NCBI GenBank assembly: GCA_902518415.1
Contig: CABYGA010000009.1
Coordinates: 1-44,691, forward strand
DNA length: 44,691 nucleotides
Direction: 5' to 3'
DNA from: an uncultured Pelagibacteraceae bacterium
Lineage (GTDB): Bacteria; Pseudomonadota; Alphaproteobacteria; Pelagibacterales; AG-422-B15
Below the pieces are notes generated by a model that was not told the origin of the DNA, ran no database searches, and saw only the letters and a list, made by a program, of their open reading frames with translations. Of the stretch, positions 24,891 through 36,083 are shown piece after piece (position 1 is the first letter of the stretch; each line of letters begins with the position of its first letter). Position numbers and translations under genes: made by a program.

Positions 24891-25820
24891 ATGAACAGTG
24901 AATTAGCAATAGCAGTTAATAATTTAAGCAAGGTTTATAAATCAAGTTCTGACACTGATAAACTTGCATTAGATAATATTTCATTGACAATAAAGAAGGG
25001 TTCAATATTCGGCTTACTTGGGCCTAATGGAGCTGGTAAATCTACATTCATTAATATTTTAGCAGACTTAGCAAAAAAAACTTCTGGGGAAATTGAAGTA
25101 TTAGGTATTAATCACGAAAGCAATTTAATAGACGCTAAGAAGCTTATGGGCATTGTACCTCAAGAATTAAACATTGATCCTTTTTTTACTCCTTACGAAC
25201 TTTTAGAAATACAGGCAGGCTTATACGGTATTAGAAAGAAAGACAGAAGAACAATGGAAATTCTAAAAATGCTTGCATTAGAAGATAAAGCCAAAGCATA
25301 TGCTAGAACTTTGTCTGGAGGAATGCGAAGACGTCTTCTTATTGCTAAAGCAATGGTCCATGATCCAGAAATATTGATACTAGATGAACCAACAGCAGGC
25401 GTCGATGTAGAGCTTAGAAGTAATTTGTGGGAGAATATTCAAAAACTAAATCAAAAAGGAAAAACTATAATTATTACTACTCATTATTTGCATGAAGCGG
25501 AAGAACTCTGTAATGAAATAGCTATCATTAACGAAGGCAGGTTGATAGCTCATGATAGTACAATTAACATAAAATCCTTTTTAGATAAAATGACAATAAT
25601 TGTTGATTATAATGATAACAATTTTAATTTGTCGGAACTTAAAAACTTTAATTTGGATATGCAAATTAAAGATAGGCAAGTCCACATAAACTATAAACCC
25701 AGTGAAGTAAATTTTAATGTAATGCTAAATGCTATAAATTCTTCTGGATCTAAAATAAATGATATGAAGATAATTGAAACTAAATTAGAGGACGTCTTTC
25801 TTCAGCTTACCCAGAAGTAA
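24891..25820 (+). CDS. ABC transporter ATP-binding protein (ABC-2 export type)
   Basis: 309 aa; GPNGAGKSTFINIL, LSGGMRRRLLIAKAM, ILDEPTAGVD; no permease gene adjacent. Confidence 0.93.
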   Translation: MNSELAIAVNNLSKVYKSSSDTDKLALDNISLTIKKGSIFGLLGPNGAGKSTFINILADLAKKTSGEIEVLGINHESNLIDAKKLMGIVPQELNIDPFFTPYELLEIQAGLYGIRKKDRRTMEILKMLALEDKAKAYARTLSGGMRRRLLIAKAMVHDPEILILDEPTAGVDVELRSNLWENIQKLNQKGKTIIITTHYLHEAEELCNEIAIINEGRLIAHDSTINIKSFLDKMTIIVDYNDNNFNLSELKNFNLDMQIKDRQVHINYKPSEVNFNVMLNAINSSGSKINDMKIIETKLEDVFLQLTQK

Positions 25821-28494
25821 TTTTTCTAGGAAAAAGCTTATCTAGTATAACTGCAAGCGCTGGAAGTGTTGTCATTGCACAAACCATATTGATTAAAAAC
25901 ATAAATGTTAATAATGATCCCATATCGGCTTGGAATTTTAGTGCAGAAAATGACCAAGTTGAAACACCAATTGCCAAAGTGATTGCCGTGAAGACAACTG
26001 CTGCCCCAGTGTTAGCGAAGGTATGTTCAAAAGCCTCTGTTATATTCATGCCTTCCTTTAAGCGAGTCTGGGTTCTATTGTATATGTAAAATGCGTAATC
26101 TACACCCACGCCAACTGCCAGCACCATAACTGGAAGTGTTGAAACCTTCAAGCCTATTTGAGCTAAATCCATGAATGCATAGCCTAGCATTGTTGCAAAT
26201 GTTAGTGGTACTGTACAACATATTGTCGCGCGCCAATCAAGATAAGTTACAAATACTAGTATTAAAATAACTATATAAACAATTATCATCATCGGCAGCT
26301 CACCTTTTTCAATAACTTCGTTGGTTGCGTGCTGAATGCCAACTGATCCGCTTGCTAATCGATTTTTAATTTCATCAGATTCGAAAATGATACTTTCAAA
26401 CTCAGGATTATTTTTAAAAAACTCTTTAATGCTTATTTCAGATTGCTTGATGTCTTTCACCATGTAATTTACATTGTCATCGAATGAGTCAATGTCTCTG
26501 TAATAATTGATTAGGCCAGGGCCAAGCATAATATTTCTTGAATTAAAACCATTCTCATATCCAAAATCAGCGAATTCATCGTCTGTAAATACTTTAGGAT
26601 TATCAATATTTAATAGATCTTCAATATTAGTTTCTTCACCCCCTAAGTTATCAACATAAGGTATTACATCTGTTCCTTCTGCTGGCTTAGCTATTAAAGT
26701 TTTGAACGTTATTGTGTCATCTAACTCACGAAACTTCCTATTATATTCTTCAACACTTTCTATAACTGTACTAATAGTCGTTGCCTTATGGTCTTCAGTG
26801 AAAACATAGATGGGCATAATAGAACATTCTTCATTCAACAATCCAGTCGATGGATCTACAACGCTAGTTGCAAAACCTAGTGCTTGAGCATTACGAGGAA
26901 GATAAGACCATTTTAAATTACCTTCGGCGTATCCACTGAGAGCTCTCTTTGCAATACTTGAAAGTGAAATTACTTTTGTTACTCCTGGAATATTCTCTAA
27001 ATACCAATGAAGATTATTTTGTGCATCAACTACATAAGTAGATCTGCATGGGTTTAAACCTCCTGTTGCTAATGCCTCAGTAATTACAACCAAAACGTCT
27101 GTTGTAACATTGTACCTTTTTGTTATTTCATTTATATCTTGATTGAACCTTGCTTCGGGCCTTAACTCAGGAGCTCCTGCATGTAAATCACCAACATGCC
27201 TTTCACTAGCCAAGTATGCGGCACCAATAAATAATACTGCGCTTACTGATAGAGTAATAACGGCTTCTCTGGGTCTAGCTAATTTTCCAAAATATCCCAT
27301 AAGATTTTGTCTATAAGAGATTGCAGATTGTGCTCGGGTTGCAAAACTTTTGTTATATCTTGCGTAAGATGCTGCTAGGGGTAACATGATAAGGTTTGTT
27401 ACAATTTTAAAAGCAACACCAATAGATGCAGTAATGCCAAGTTCTTGGATCATTCCAATTGGCAATAAAATTAATGTACCAAATCCTACCAAGTCGGTGA
27501 CTAATGCCATTGAACCAGGTACAAGAAGTCTTGAGAAAGATGCCCTTGCAGCGTATTCGGCTGTTTGTCCTTCTATGACTTCCTTAGTAATCTGATTCAC
27601 TTGTTGAATACCATGAGAAACACCTATCGCAAAAACTAAAAATGGAACTAAAATTGCAAGAGGATCAAGTCCAAACCCAAGTATTTTGAGCATTCCAAAT
27701 TGCCATATAAGAGAAGTAAGTGAGCAAATAAGTGGAAGAAATGTCAATGTCCAAGATCTAGAGTACCAATAGACCGCTAAAACTGTCAGAAAGAATGCAA
27801 GTCCAAAAAATATGACAACATTATAAGCTTCACTTGCAATATCAGAAATCATTTTTGCGAAGCCAGTTATCTCAACTCGATAGTCGCCCTGTTCATACTC
27901 ATCTCTTATTGTTTCAATTTCTTGACCGAGCTTAAGGTAATCTAATTTTTCCCCAGTTTTAGGATTGTATTCAGTTAACTCAACTTTAATGAGCGATGAA
28001 GTAAAATCATTCGCCACAATACTTCCAACATGTCCACCTGTTAATATTCTTTCCTTAATGCTTTCAATAATTTTTGGTGTAAGACTTTCAGGAGTAACTG
28101 TTCCTGGTATCACCTCAGAACTCTCAAAGCCTTCTTCCGTTACTCTCATTACTCTAATATTAGGGGTCCATAGAGATTGCATTGATCCCTGGTTCACACC
28201 AGGTAGATATCTTATTGTATTATTTAAATTAAAGAGCTTGGATAAATATTCTTTTGTAAAAATATCACCTTCAGTTTTTCTTAAAGCGATGGTAATACTA
28301 TTTGTTCCACTAAGATCATCCTGATACTCATAATATGTTTTTACAAATGAATGGCTGTTGGGTAGCTGTTTTGCAAAACCTGCATCCATTCTTATCTGAA
28401 CTGCAAAATAAGCCATCACAATTGTAATGAGGACAAATCCAGCAAGAACTGGAAGACGGTATCTGAAAAACCAATTTTCTATTTTTTGTAACAT
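25807..28494 (-). CDS. MMPL/RND-superfamily exporter
   Basis: 895 aa; twelve-TM RND layout with two large loops; AIGVSHGIQQVNQI and VGVGVDYAFYIYNRTQTRLKEG motifs. Confidence 0.88.
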   Translation of the reverse strand: MLQKIENWFFRYRLPVLAGFVLITIVMAYFAVQIRMDAGFAKQLPNSHSFVKTYYEYQDDLSGTNSITIALRKTEGDIFTKEYLSKLFNLNNTIRYLPGVNQGSMQSLWTPNIRVMRVTEEGFESSEVIPGTVTPESLTPKIIESIKERILTGGHVGSIVANDFTSSLIKVELTEYNPKTGEKLDYLKLGQEIETIRDEYEQGDYRVEITGFAKMISDIASEAYNVVIFFGLAFFLTVLAVYWYSRSWTLTFLPLICSLTSLIWQFGMLKILGFGLDPLAILVPFLVFAIGVSHGIQQVNQITKEVIEGQTAEYAARASFSRLLVPGSMALVTDLVGFGTLILLPIGMIQELGITASIGVAFKIVTNLIMLPLAASYARYNKSFATRAQSAISYRQNLMGYFGKLARPREAVITLSVSAVLFIGAAYLASERHVGDLHAGAPELRPEARFNQDINEITKRYNVTTDVLVVITEALATGGLNPCRSTYVVDAQNNLHWYLENIPGVTKVISLSSIAKRALSGYAEGNLKWSYLPRNAQALGFATSVVDPSTGLLNEECSIMPIYVFTEDHKATTISTVIESVEEYNRKFRELDDTITFKTLIAKPAEGTDVIPYVDNLGGEETNIEDLLNIDNPKVFTDDEFADFGYENGFNSRNIMLGPGLINYYRDIDSFDDNVNYMVKDIKQSEISIKEFFKNNPEFESIIFESDEIKNRLASGSVGIQHATNEVIEKGELPMMIIVYIVILILVFVTYLDWRATICCTVPLTFATMLGYAFMDLAQIGLKVSTLPVMVLAVGVGVDYAFYIYNRTQTRLKEGMNITEAFEHTFANTGAAVVFTAITLAIGVSTWSFSALKFQADMGSLLTFMFLINMVCAMTTLPALAVILDKLFPRKITSG

Positions 28495-28658: not shown

Positions 28659-28682
28659 ATTTATGAACATATGCTCATAAAT
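28659..28682. promoter_or_regulatory. 24-bp near-perfect palindrome, candidate operator
   Basis: ATTTATGAACATATGCTCATAAAT, one mismatched pair out of 12, about 23 nt upstream of the diiron-protein ATG at 28705. Confidence 0.5.
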
Positions 28683-28704
28683 TTATAGGACATAATTTAT
28701 AATT

Positions 28705-29916
28705 ATGTATAATAATCACATGGCCGAACTACAACAAAAATTAGATTTTGCAAAAATATATGCGAAAGATCAGATCTTTAAATTGAAAAGAATGTGGCAA
28801 ATGTCACGTAATGGAAAAAATGCGATGAATAAAGATCCAGCATATAACGCCACTAACCCTAGTCATTTCATACCGATGATAGAAAGAGATAGATACATTG
28901 AAAGAGTTGATAGTTTTGATCAGATGATATCAGCAACTCATAAACATTTTTGGGATCCAAATGACAAATCTTACATTGATTTTGACGAGCCGTTTGACAT
29001 GGAAAATGAATATATAGTCGACCCTAATGTCTTTTGCATGGAGCTTAGAGTACCTGCGATTGCTGATAGCTTGACTGAAAAACAAAAAATTAAATTAAAT
29101 AATGAGAGTTTCAGATGGGTGCTTTCTCAGATTCTGCATGGTGAGCAAGGTGCTTTATCTTTAAGTGCGAGTCTTTGCCATGTATTAAAAGATCCGGGAG
29201 CACAAGAATATGCAGCTAACCAAACTCGCGAAGAAGCTAGACATGTTACTGGGTTTACTAATTATATAAAAGCAAGATGGGGATCTCCATATCCAGTTGG
29301 TCCAACTCTAGGAAGAATTTTAGAACAAATTGTGTCATCGGATGTTGTTTATAAAAAAATTGTTGGAATGCAAATGATGATTGAAGGTCTTGCAATGGGT
29401 GCGTTTGGTATGGCTCACCAAGATACTAATGATCCACTCCTTAAAACTCTTTTGAAATTCACAATGAGTGATGAGGCGTTTCATCATAAGTTTGGTAAAA
29501 TTTGGGCAGATAGAACTGTGCCTAAGTTATCTGAATCAGAAAGATACAAAGTAGAAGATTGGTCTGCGATGATTTTCAAAGATTTGCTCTACAACCTTGT
29601 TAATCCTTGGGAAAAAAAAGCAATTTATCAAAGCGTTGGCCTAGATCATAAATTTGTAACTAAACACTTTATGCAAGAAATTGATCGAGACTCTGTAATA
29701 CGCGAAGAAATGATGGAAAGTAACAATATATTCAGAGTACTTTGTAAAACGCTACTTAAAGCAAATATCATCACTGAAAGAACAAGAAAAACTTACGCTG
29801 AATTTGTAAATATGGAAGAGCTTAATGCTGAAGATGATGAAGTTGCAGGAATTGACATAGCAAACGAAGGATTAGCTCAACTTGAACAAATCAATAAAGG
29901 CCGTAAAGTAGCTTAA
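28705..29916 (+). CDS. Ferritin-like (R2-type) diiron carboxylate protein of unknown function
   Basis: 403 aa; ligand pattern E147, E177xxH180, E227, E257xxH260 (HGEQGAL, EEARHVTGF, MMIEGLA, SDEAFHHKF). Start could be 28705 or M at 28720. Confidence 0.78.
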   Translation: MYNNHMAELQQKLDFAKIYAKDQIFKLKRMWQMSRNGKNAMNKDPAYNATNPSHFIPMIERDRYIERVDSFDQMISATHKHFWDPNDKSYIDFDEPFDMENEYIVDPNVFCMELRVPAIADSLTEKQKIKLNNESFRWVLSQILHGEQGALSLSASLCHVLKDPGAQEYAANQTREEARHVTGFTNYIKARWGSPYPVGPTLGRILEQIVSSDVVYKKIVGMQMMIEGLAMGAFGMAHQDTNDPLLKTLLKFTMSDEAFHHKFGKIWADRTVPKLSESERYKVEDWSAMIFKDLLYNLVNPWEKKAIYQSVGLDHKFVTKHFMQEIDRDSVIREEMMESNNIFRVLCKTLLKANIITERTRKTYAEFVNMEELNAEDDEVAGIDIANEGLAQLEQINKGRKVA

Positions 29917-29928
29917 TTTCTATAGATT

Positions 29929-30486
29929 TTATTTTGGTGATTTTTTCTGAAGTATTCTTTGTAGTGTTCTTCGGTGCATTTTCAATCTTCTGGCTGTCTC
30001 TGAAACGTTTCTATTACACAACTCATAAACCCTAAGTATATGCTCCCATTTTACTCTATCAGCTGACATAGGGTTCTTTGGAGGTTCTGGACTAGATGAA
30101 TAAGGTGCTTTTAAAGCTGCTTCAATATCATCTGCATCTGCAGGCTTCGCTAAATAGTCGCAAGCTCCTTCTTTCACAGCCGCAACTGCAGTTGGAATAT
30201 TTCCATATCCAGTAAGCATAACAATTTTACTATCAGATCTTTGTTTTGAAAGTAGAGATACTATCTCTAAACCGTTTCCATCATCTAGCCTTAGATCAAC
30301 TACAGCATATTTTGGAAATTTCTCTGCTAGTAAAGACTTAGCCTCTTGAACTGAAGCAGCGCCATATGCTTCGTACCCTTTTCTTCTCATAGCAGTAATA
30401 AGTCTATTTCTAAACACATCATCGTCATCAAGTATCAATAACGACTTATCTAAGTTTAAGTTATTTTCTATATTATTCATCTTCAA
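29929..30486 (-). CDS. regA: RegA/ActR/PrrA-type response regulator
   Basis: 185 aa; receiver plus Fis-type HTH VSETARRLKMHRRTLQRILQKKSP. Confidence 0.9.
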   Translation of the reverse strand: MKMNNIENNLNLDKSLLILDDDDVFRNRLITAMRRKGYEAYGAASVQEAKSLLAEKFPKYAVVDLRLDDGNGLEIVSLLSKQRSDSKIVMLTGYGNIPTAVAAVKEGACDYLAKPADADDIEAALKAPYSSSPEPPKNPMSADRVKWEHILRVYELCNRNVSETARRLKMHRRTLQRILQKKSPK

Positions 30487-31771
30487 GTCCTAGGGCGCTT
30501 TTAATTAAGATTACCTGAACACATCCGCCTTTATTCTTTCTATAGAGAAACTTAATCTCACCAAGTGACTTTGCAAGTAAGTTCTTCGAAATAAATAAAC
30601 CCAGACCCAGACCTTCCTTATCCTTGTCTCTATTATTACGTAAATATGGCTCACCTAGAAATGGATAAATTTCAGATGCAAACCCTGGACCATCATCAAC
30701 AATCTCTATTATGATTTTTCCCTCTTCATTTTTTAAACTAATTTCTACAGAATTTACAGCATACTTAAATGCATTATCTATAATATTAGTTAGTGCATGT
30801 ACTAGTTCAGCAGATCTGTGAATAACAACTTTATCTCTTTCAAAATAGTCATCAAAAGATATATGAAATTTTATTTTATTGTCATCATATGGCGAAACAA
30901 TTTCATTTATTAAACGAATAAAATTTAATTGATTAATAAATTCATTACTTTTATCAGATAAATTATTTGATCTCAGTCGTTCTAATATTTCTTTACACCT
31001 CTCTAGTTGAGATTGAATAACTAATAAATCCTCACTTAAAGCTCCATCTTTATTATTGTTAACTAATTCCTTATTGATGATTGAAATTGTTGAAAGTGGT
31101 GTTCCTAGTTCATGAACAGCTGCAGCAGTAAGGCTCATTAAAGCTGAGACCTGTTCTTCATTGGATAGTGATAATTGTGATTGTCTTAAAGCCTGTCTTG
31201 TTTTTCTTGAGTCATCTGCAACTCTAAAGCAGTAGGCCGTTATAAAAATTGAAGTAATTACTAAAGCTGACCATATTAAAAATATTTCAAATCCTGAAAA
31301 ATCACCTTTACTGATCCCGAGAGTTATGCTTTCAAGAGGATAGTAATAATAAGCTAAAAAATTGAGGGAGACGATGGCAATTACAGTTATCATAACTGTT
31401 CTTCTAAAATCTAAATATGTAGCTGCAATTACAAGTGGTGCCAATATCAAAACGCAGAAAGGATTTGTTAATCCACCAGTTAAATACAACAATGAAATTA
31501 ATTGAATTAAATCAAAAACTAAATAAAAAAAAGTTTCATTGTAATTAAGAATCTTTGTTAGAGGATACAAAACGCTTACTGCTATATTAAGAGTTACGCT
31601 AAGTAAGATTAATAAAATGCAGATATAAATATTAAAGACTATCTGGAAATAAAAAAAAGCTATAACGACAGCAGAGAATTGGCCAAGGACCGCTATCCAA
31701 CGAATAAGATTGAGTGTCCTTAATCGTAGGTTAATGTCTTCATTTTGCAATAAATCAGCAGAATTTTTCAA
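30473..31771 (-). CDS. regB: RegB/ActS/PrrB-type redox sensor histidine kinase
   Basis: 432 aa; multi-TM N-terminus with LTGGLTNPFCVLILAP (GGxxNPF quinone motif), AAVHELGTPLSTISI H-box, QLERCKEILERL cysteine-containing redox-box-like region. Confidence 0.92.
   Translation of the reverse strand: MKNSADLLQNEDINLRLRTLNLIRWIAVLGQFSAVVIAFFYFQIVFNIYICILLILLSVTLNIAVSVLYPLTKILNYNETFFYLVFDLIQLISLLYLTGGLTNPFCVLILAPLVIAATYLDFRRTVMITVIAIVSLNFLAYYYYPLESITLGISKGDFSGFEIFLIWSALVITSIFITAYCFRVADDSRKTRQALRQSQLSLSNEEQVSALMSLTAAAVHELGTPLSTISIINKELVNNNKDGALSEDLLVIQSQLERCKEILERLRSNNLSDKSNEFINQLNFIRLINEIVSPYDDNKIKFHISFDDYFERDKVVIHRSAELVHALTNIIDNAFKYAVNSVEISLKNEEGKIIIEIVDDGPGFASEIYPFLGEPYLRNNRDKDKEGLGLGLFISKNLLAKSLGEIKFLYRKNKGGCVQVILIKSALGLEDE

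Positions 31772-31826: not shown

Positions 31827-36083
<4,257 letters not shown>

Follow-up and report, generated by a model that had tools for sequence, protein, structure and literature searches.

A regulated gene for a putative diiron oxygenase of an uncharacterised family in SAR11 bacteria of the AG-422-B15 group

The window analysed here, a 44,691-nt stretch of DNA, carries a real, conserved and regulated enzyme gene of an uncharacterised family, for which a specific function can be proposed. The window is part of a 929-kb genome (77% complete) of an open-ocean SAR11 bacterium of the AG-422-B15 group. As judged from sequence, the gene would encode a diiron oxygenase that acts on apolar aliphatic substrates, is controlled by a TetR protein and is fed by a ferredoxin, a reading to which we give about an even chance. 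The features referred to below are, in window coordinates:

25807–28494, minus strand: divergent RND exporter, HAE3-like (AmeD-like), 895 aa, co-occurring with the oxygenase gene
28659–28682: 24-bp palindrome, candidate operator, 11 of 12 pairs, conserved in SAR11 orthologs
28664–28677: palindrome core TGAACATATGCTCA, within the 24-bp palindrome
28705–29916, plus strand: ORF as first read, 403 aa
28708–28713, plus strand: TATAAT, -10 hexamer by sequence, with ortholog counterparts at about -12
28720–29916, plus strand: diiron oxygenase-like protein, 398 aa with the probable start codon
29143, 29233, 29242, 29383, 29473 and 29482, plus strand: codons of the ligands E142, E172, H175, E222, E252 and H255 (398-aa numbering)
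29929–30486, minus strand: convergent RegA-like response regulator, conserved neighbour
30473–31771, minus strand: RegB-like sensor kinase, conserved neighbour

The names of the last two genes come from the sequence-only reading that preceded this study and from sequence appearance.

The gene, its product and its family

The sequence-only reading had described a 403-aa ORF with a complete ligand set, and both were found. Two ExxH motifs and two single Glu ligands (E147, E177xxH180, E227 and E257xxH260 in 403-aa numbering) form the R2-type ferritin-like pattern, all six ligands are invariant across 42 aligned relatives, and the predicted fold is all-helical (model pLDDT 80). The start likely lies at the second Met, ATG 28720, because the TATAAT hexamer overlaps ATG 28705 and the orthologs begin at the Met corresponding to ATG 28720. 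The gap between TATAAT and ATG 28720 is 6 nt, a spacing that fits a leaderless mRNA, which would be expected here.

In a Pfam search the window protein matched AurF (PF11583) with 32.4 bits against a gathering cut-off of 29.6 (E 7e-8), and 41 of the 42 relatives also match this model. The ferritin-like diiron core is thus shared with the AurF/CmlI N-oxygenases. AurF has a seventh ligand, a third histidine four residues before the last ExxH; this position is T248 in the window protein and is not His in nine other aligned members from two phyla, and membership of AurF was rejected on this ground. No amine context was seen either. The best matches in a PDB profile search, aligned through the ligand region, were aldehyde decarbonylases (ADO; E 6e-4 to 3e-3), with no AurF chain among the matches, and a PDB search with the single window protein matched nothing. 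The four-carboxylate/two-histidine ligand set and its spacing are like those of cyanobacterial ADO, but ADO chains in the PDB are about 230–265 aa long, as against about 400 aa here, and the window protein does not reach the ADO models PF11266 and TIGR04059 (no match up to E 10), which are weakly matched by 30 and 31 of the 42 relatives, respectively. Helical fold and ligand layout are also shared with R2-like proteins (NrdB/NrdF, R2-like ligand-binding oxidase), but there is no nrd context, and Foldseek returned only weak R2-like matches (E no better than 8e-3, about 11–16% identity), which are not decisive. Taken together, the Pfam and PDB profile matches, the missing AurF histidine, the all-helical model and the weak R2-like structural matches give good support to placing the protein in the superfamily of ferritin-like diiron oxygenases, where it falls between AurF and ADO and belongs to neither.

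Many alphaproteobacterial families have homologs with 48–61% identity, frequently as multiple copies, and a second subfamily is found at roughly 27–39% identity. The family is therefore common in Alphaproteobacteria, and it is uncharacterised; a literature search on the family, on alkane use by SAR11 and on AG-422-B15 found nothing directly relevant. The earlier description of the protein as not obviously a named enzyme holds, given a marginal AurF match, a ligand set that departs from AurF, no NCBIfam model matched and no confident match to a characterised family. The term 'orphan' is apt in so far as no model names a function, but not otherwise, as the Pfam AurF score is just over its cut-off and homologs are common and multi-copy.

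The upstream palindrome and its counterparts in other Alphaproteobacteria

The 24-bp palindrome reported upstream of the gene was confirmed; its downstream end lies 22 nt from ATG 28705 and 37 nt from ATG 28720. A palindrome of such quality is not in itself remarkable in this window of 32% GC, where four with 11 of 12 pairs were found against 0.35 expected from dinucleotide shuffles, so the case for its function rests on conservation. The three others lie at 628–651, 25647–25670 and 34330–34353. Conservation upstream of orthologs, which the sequence-only reading had proposed as a check, was found: 30 of 40 SAR11 orthologs have the core TGAACAnnTGTTCA with no more than 2 mismatches, in every case -56 to -58 relative to the ATG, and a TATAAT follows downstream at about -12. 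Relatives in other orders are likewise preceded by a palindrome of this architecture. Five of the remaining ten SAR11 orthologs have an obvious other palindrome at about the same place, and five have no clear one (none clear in L132–L134, one good half in L108 and L109). In some variants both arms are altered in step (GAGC/GCTC in L096 and L098), and in four orthologs (L110–L113) the operator is replaced by TATATCAnnnTGATATA at about -60 from the ATG. Symmetric changes of this kind are the pattern expected of a site for a dimeric regulator. The exchange in L110–L113 would fit a joint change of regulator and site.

No second convincing operator site was found in the window's genome. A perfect palindrome with the operator's core, TTGAACAGCTGTTCAA, is present in several genomes of the same genus (L287, position 2456; L288, position 2537; L291, position 2392), where it sits between an aminomethyltransferase-like gene and an aminotransferase–Rieske gene pair; the regulator may have another target there, or the site may belong to a different regulator.

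Relatives of the gene in other Alphaproteobacteria carry TGACGCnnGCGTCA, which has the 6-2-6 layout of the SAR11 operator and TGA...TCA ends; the layout is alike, the sequence different. Within 1.19 Mb of loci, 67 such sites (up to 1 mismatch) were found compared with 4 after shuffling, and 51 of the 67 lie upstream of the oxygenase family, although these are not counts of independent events, as many of the loci are closely related (Caulobacter) and a few occur twice in the set. In a scan of 24 genomes, each had 0–6 sites, against 0–1 for a reversed-motif control. Intact or near-intact sites precede genes for CYP153 P450s (L234, L244, L246, L136, L196; P450 match to CYP153A7 at 3e-157), ferredoxin reductase (L242, L250 and Caulobacter loci), ferredoxin (L243, L181, L183; matching putidaredoxins), flavin monooxygenases (L236, L252) and acyl-CoA dehydrogenases (L251), the other operator-sharing genes having been identified with Pfam and NCBIfam. 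Further matches (e.g. L235, L239, L249) have no obvious connection. That the genes sharing TGACGCnnGCGTCA in relatives make up an alkane and fatty-acid oxidation set is well supported by these assignments, and is the main functional evidence. This regulon is seen in the relatives and not in SAR11, where no regulon gene besides the oxygenase gene was found.

Genes in the high-GC loci were called with a simple GC3-weighted script, and neighbours were clustered on those calls. Members of the second subfamily (about 30% identity) in L181 (7481, 7942) and L183 have two exact TGACGCnnGCGTCA sites and adjoin genes for a ferredoxin, a divergently encoded TetR and a fatty acid desaturase. On plasmid pTM3 of Tistrella mobilis (L031), a divergent family member is clustered with Rieske oxygenase, radical SAM, PaaA-like and thioesterase-like genes and has a different palindrome, ATTGACGTATACGTCAAT, upstream; since this is a divergent copy with another palindrome, its neighbourhood was set aside as a functional clue.

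The regulator of the palindrome is likely a TetR protein, here called TetR-A, encoded near beta-oxidation genes; the evidence for this is circumstantial. The scanned SAR11 genomes have mainly two TetR types, BetI-like and TetR-A. The BetI-like type is disfavoured, as it has its own, different palindrome, and the WHG-type TetR of L181/L183 was discarded as a general regulator, since it was seen in that one cluster only and was missing from the TetR types found in the scanned SAR11 genomes. TetR-A aligns over its full length with a TetR of G096 whose own promoter has an exact TGACGCnnGCGTCA. Of the genomes examined for its clade, 17 of 23 non-SAR11 genomes have a member, in one case a partial gene at the end of a contig, as have all of the three SAR11 genomes, and a TGACGCnnGCGTCA-type site lies at the regulator's own promoter in 3 of the 17. 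The site-scanned genomes that have no member of the clade (G095, G355, G140, G129, G197) show no intact core among their listed sites, a match that is suggestive only, because several genomes with the regulator also have no intact core. In SAR11, TetR-A lies in a pyrD-tetR-SDR run, and up to about 9 kb away are genes for an enoyl-CoA hydratase, a MaoC-like protein, two acyl-CoA dehydrogenases and a further SDR (all names by sequence appearance).

Neighbouring genes and distribution in SAR11

The nearest public relatives of the window are Pelagibacteraceae/Pelagibacterales single-cell genomes, and AG-422-B15 falls in the same ortholog set. Two groups were compared: 36 genomes of the same genus (G000–G035) and 23 genomes of another SAR11 family, taken as Pelagibacteraceae proper (the sister family below). 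Of these, 28 of the 36 and none of the 23 have the oxygenase-like gene; as the genomes are incomplete, its absence from any single one is weak evidence. The divergent exporter gene occurs in essentially the same SAR11 genomes, the mismatches (G013, G027, G032) lying at contig ends, and is likewise in 0 of the 23 sister-family genomes. Divergent RND genes also flank family members in five non-SAR11 loci (L136, L174, L179, L192, L196). A functional link between exporter and oxygenase, left open by the sequence-only reading, thus gains support from co-occurrence, from the one intergenic region common to both genes and from the similar arrangement in these five loci. A further large contrast in lipid metabolism inside SAR11 is that genomes of the genus have 3–10 acyl-CoA dehydrogenases each, compared with 0–1 in the sister family.

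The exporter meets the Pfam MMPL model, and its best NCBIfam model is HAE3 (TIGR00921; E 7e-56, 190 bits against a cut-off of 352). In Castellaniella, tolerance of apolar monoterpenes involves the AmeD pump of the AmeABCD system together with DUF1302, DUF1329 and YCF48-like proteins (PMC6394551). The SAR11 genome similarly has an HAE3-like RND pump and partners of these types, the latter in a DUF1302-DUF1329-YCF48-SDR run of the window's own genome (DUF1302 and YCF48 by sequence appearance); unlike in AmeABCD, the pump gene is away from its presumed partners and beside the oxygenase gene. DUF1329 genes are present in all 36 genomes of the genus, and no full-length DUF1329 was found in the sister family. 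A second full-length DUF1329 gene, with no DUF1302, YCF48 or RND neighbours, occurs in G000 (contig C3; L305, 8436–9719), and this copy is widespread in the genus.

On the other side of the gene, RegBA-like genes also adjoin family members in many Alphaproteobacteria, and in Caulobacterales lipocalin-like and MmcB-like genes lie between the two; the link to RegBA is one of conserved neighbourhood only. In the gene tree, the SAR11 proteins form one clade, next to a G104 copy that lies outside a RegBA/RND locus. Neighbourhood and gene tree are thus not fully in agreement, for which gene replacement or tree error are possible explanations.

Proposed function, alternatives and significance

The earlier suggestion (a regulated oxidase, oxygenase or stress protein) holds, and the choice can now be reduced to an oxygenase acting on aliphatic, lipid-type substrates. 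Since relatives share their kind of operator with genes that degrade alkane- or fatty acid-type compounds, the enzyme probably oxidises compounds of this type. In the proposed scheme, a TetR-type repressor would sit on the palindrome just upstream of the promoter and be released by a lipid-derived signal such as acyl-CoA. A [2Fe-2S] ferredoxin would give electrons to the enzyme, whose putative diiron site would activate O2 and oxidise an apolar aliphatic substrate (an alkyl chain, fatty acyl or fatty aldehyde), and the product would go into acyl-CoA beta-oxidation. Whether the chemistry is hydroxylation, desaturation or aldehyde C–C cleavage cannot be told from sequence. The HAE3-like pump, together with the DUF1302, DUF1329 and YCF48 envelope proteins encoded elsewhere in the genome, may move the hydrophobic substrate or product. 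A parallel among the operator-sharing genes is the CYP153 operon with its ferredoxin and reductase, with which relatives share the operator and sometimes the locus; CYP153 is, however, a P450 and not a diiron enzyme, and no P450 was found in the window's genus, where a CYP153 partner was looked for.

Two alternatives concern the reaction itself. A functional ADO, converting fatty aldehyde to alkane and formate, would account for the ligand set, the top PDB profile match and the many relatives that touch the ADO models, but the window protein itself falls below those models and is much longer than the PDB chains, and the genes co-regulated with its relatives oxidise alkanes and fatty acids and do not make alkanes; we consider it unlikely. 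Very improbable is an AurF/CmlI-like N-oxygenase acting on an amine, towards which the Pfam match of nearly all members points: the extra histidine ligand is missing, no AurF chain appeared in the PDB profile search and the regulon is without amine or nitro chemistry.

Two others concern its role. The enzyme might modify terpenoid, hopanoid or other membrane lipids instead of food compounds, the RND pump then placing the product in the envelope. The co-occurring divergent pump fits such a role, HAE3 members being known to move hopanoids or monoterpenes (PMC6394551), and a single gene copy in SAR11 with a leaderless promoter would suit a housekeeping function. The operator-sharing genes of relatives are nevertheless CYP153 and acyl-CoA genes, no hopanoid or terpenoid biosynthesis gene was seen adjoining the oxygenase gene, and this reading is judged improbable. 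A redox or oxygen-stress function linked to the adjacent RegBA system could explain why RegBA-like genes are kept beside the family in so many Alphaproteobacteria, but is hardly probable, as the operator is common to lipid and alkane oxidation genes and not to stress genes, and in Caulobacterales the two are separated by other genes. The preferred reading remains that of an oxygenase of aliphatic compounds.

A wider reading, offered tentatively and in our estimation somewhat doubtful, is that a module for oxidising hydrocarbons or lipids operates throughout the AG-422-B15 family of SAR11. At its centre would be a soluble diiron alkane/acyl oxygenase of a hitherto unknown kind that receives electrons from ferredoxin, joined by HAE3-type export and expanded acyl-CoA dehydrogenases. 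On the same reading, the enzyme family would also be co-regulated with CYP153 in many Alphaproteobacteria, as a partner that has escaped notice. The usual picture of SAR11 bacteria is one of organisms living on small dissolved molecules. Alkanes made by Prochlorococcus and Synechococcus are also present in sea water, and their removers are only partly known (PMC10176705). For enzymology, the family lies between AurF and ADO, and its operator-sharing genes predict both a substrate class and an electron donor. For SAR11, the presence in one family of the oxygenase, the exporter and many acyl-CoA dehydrogenases, all absent or nearly so in the sister family, provides a testable case for the use of lipids or hydrocarbons.
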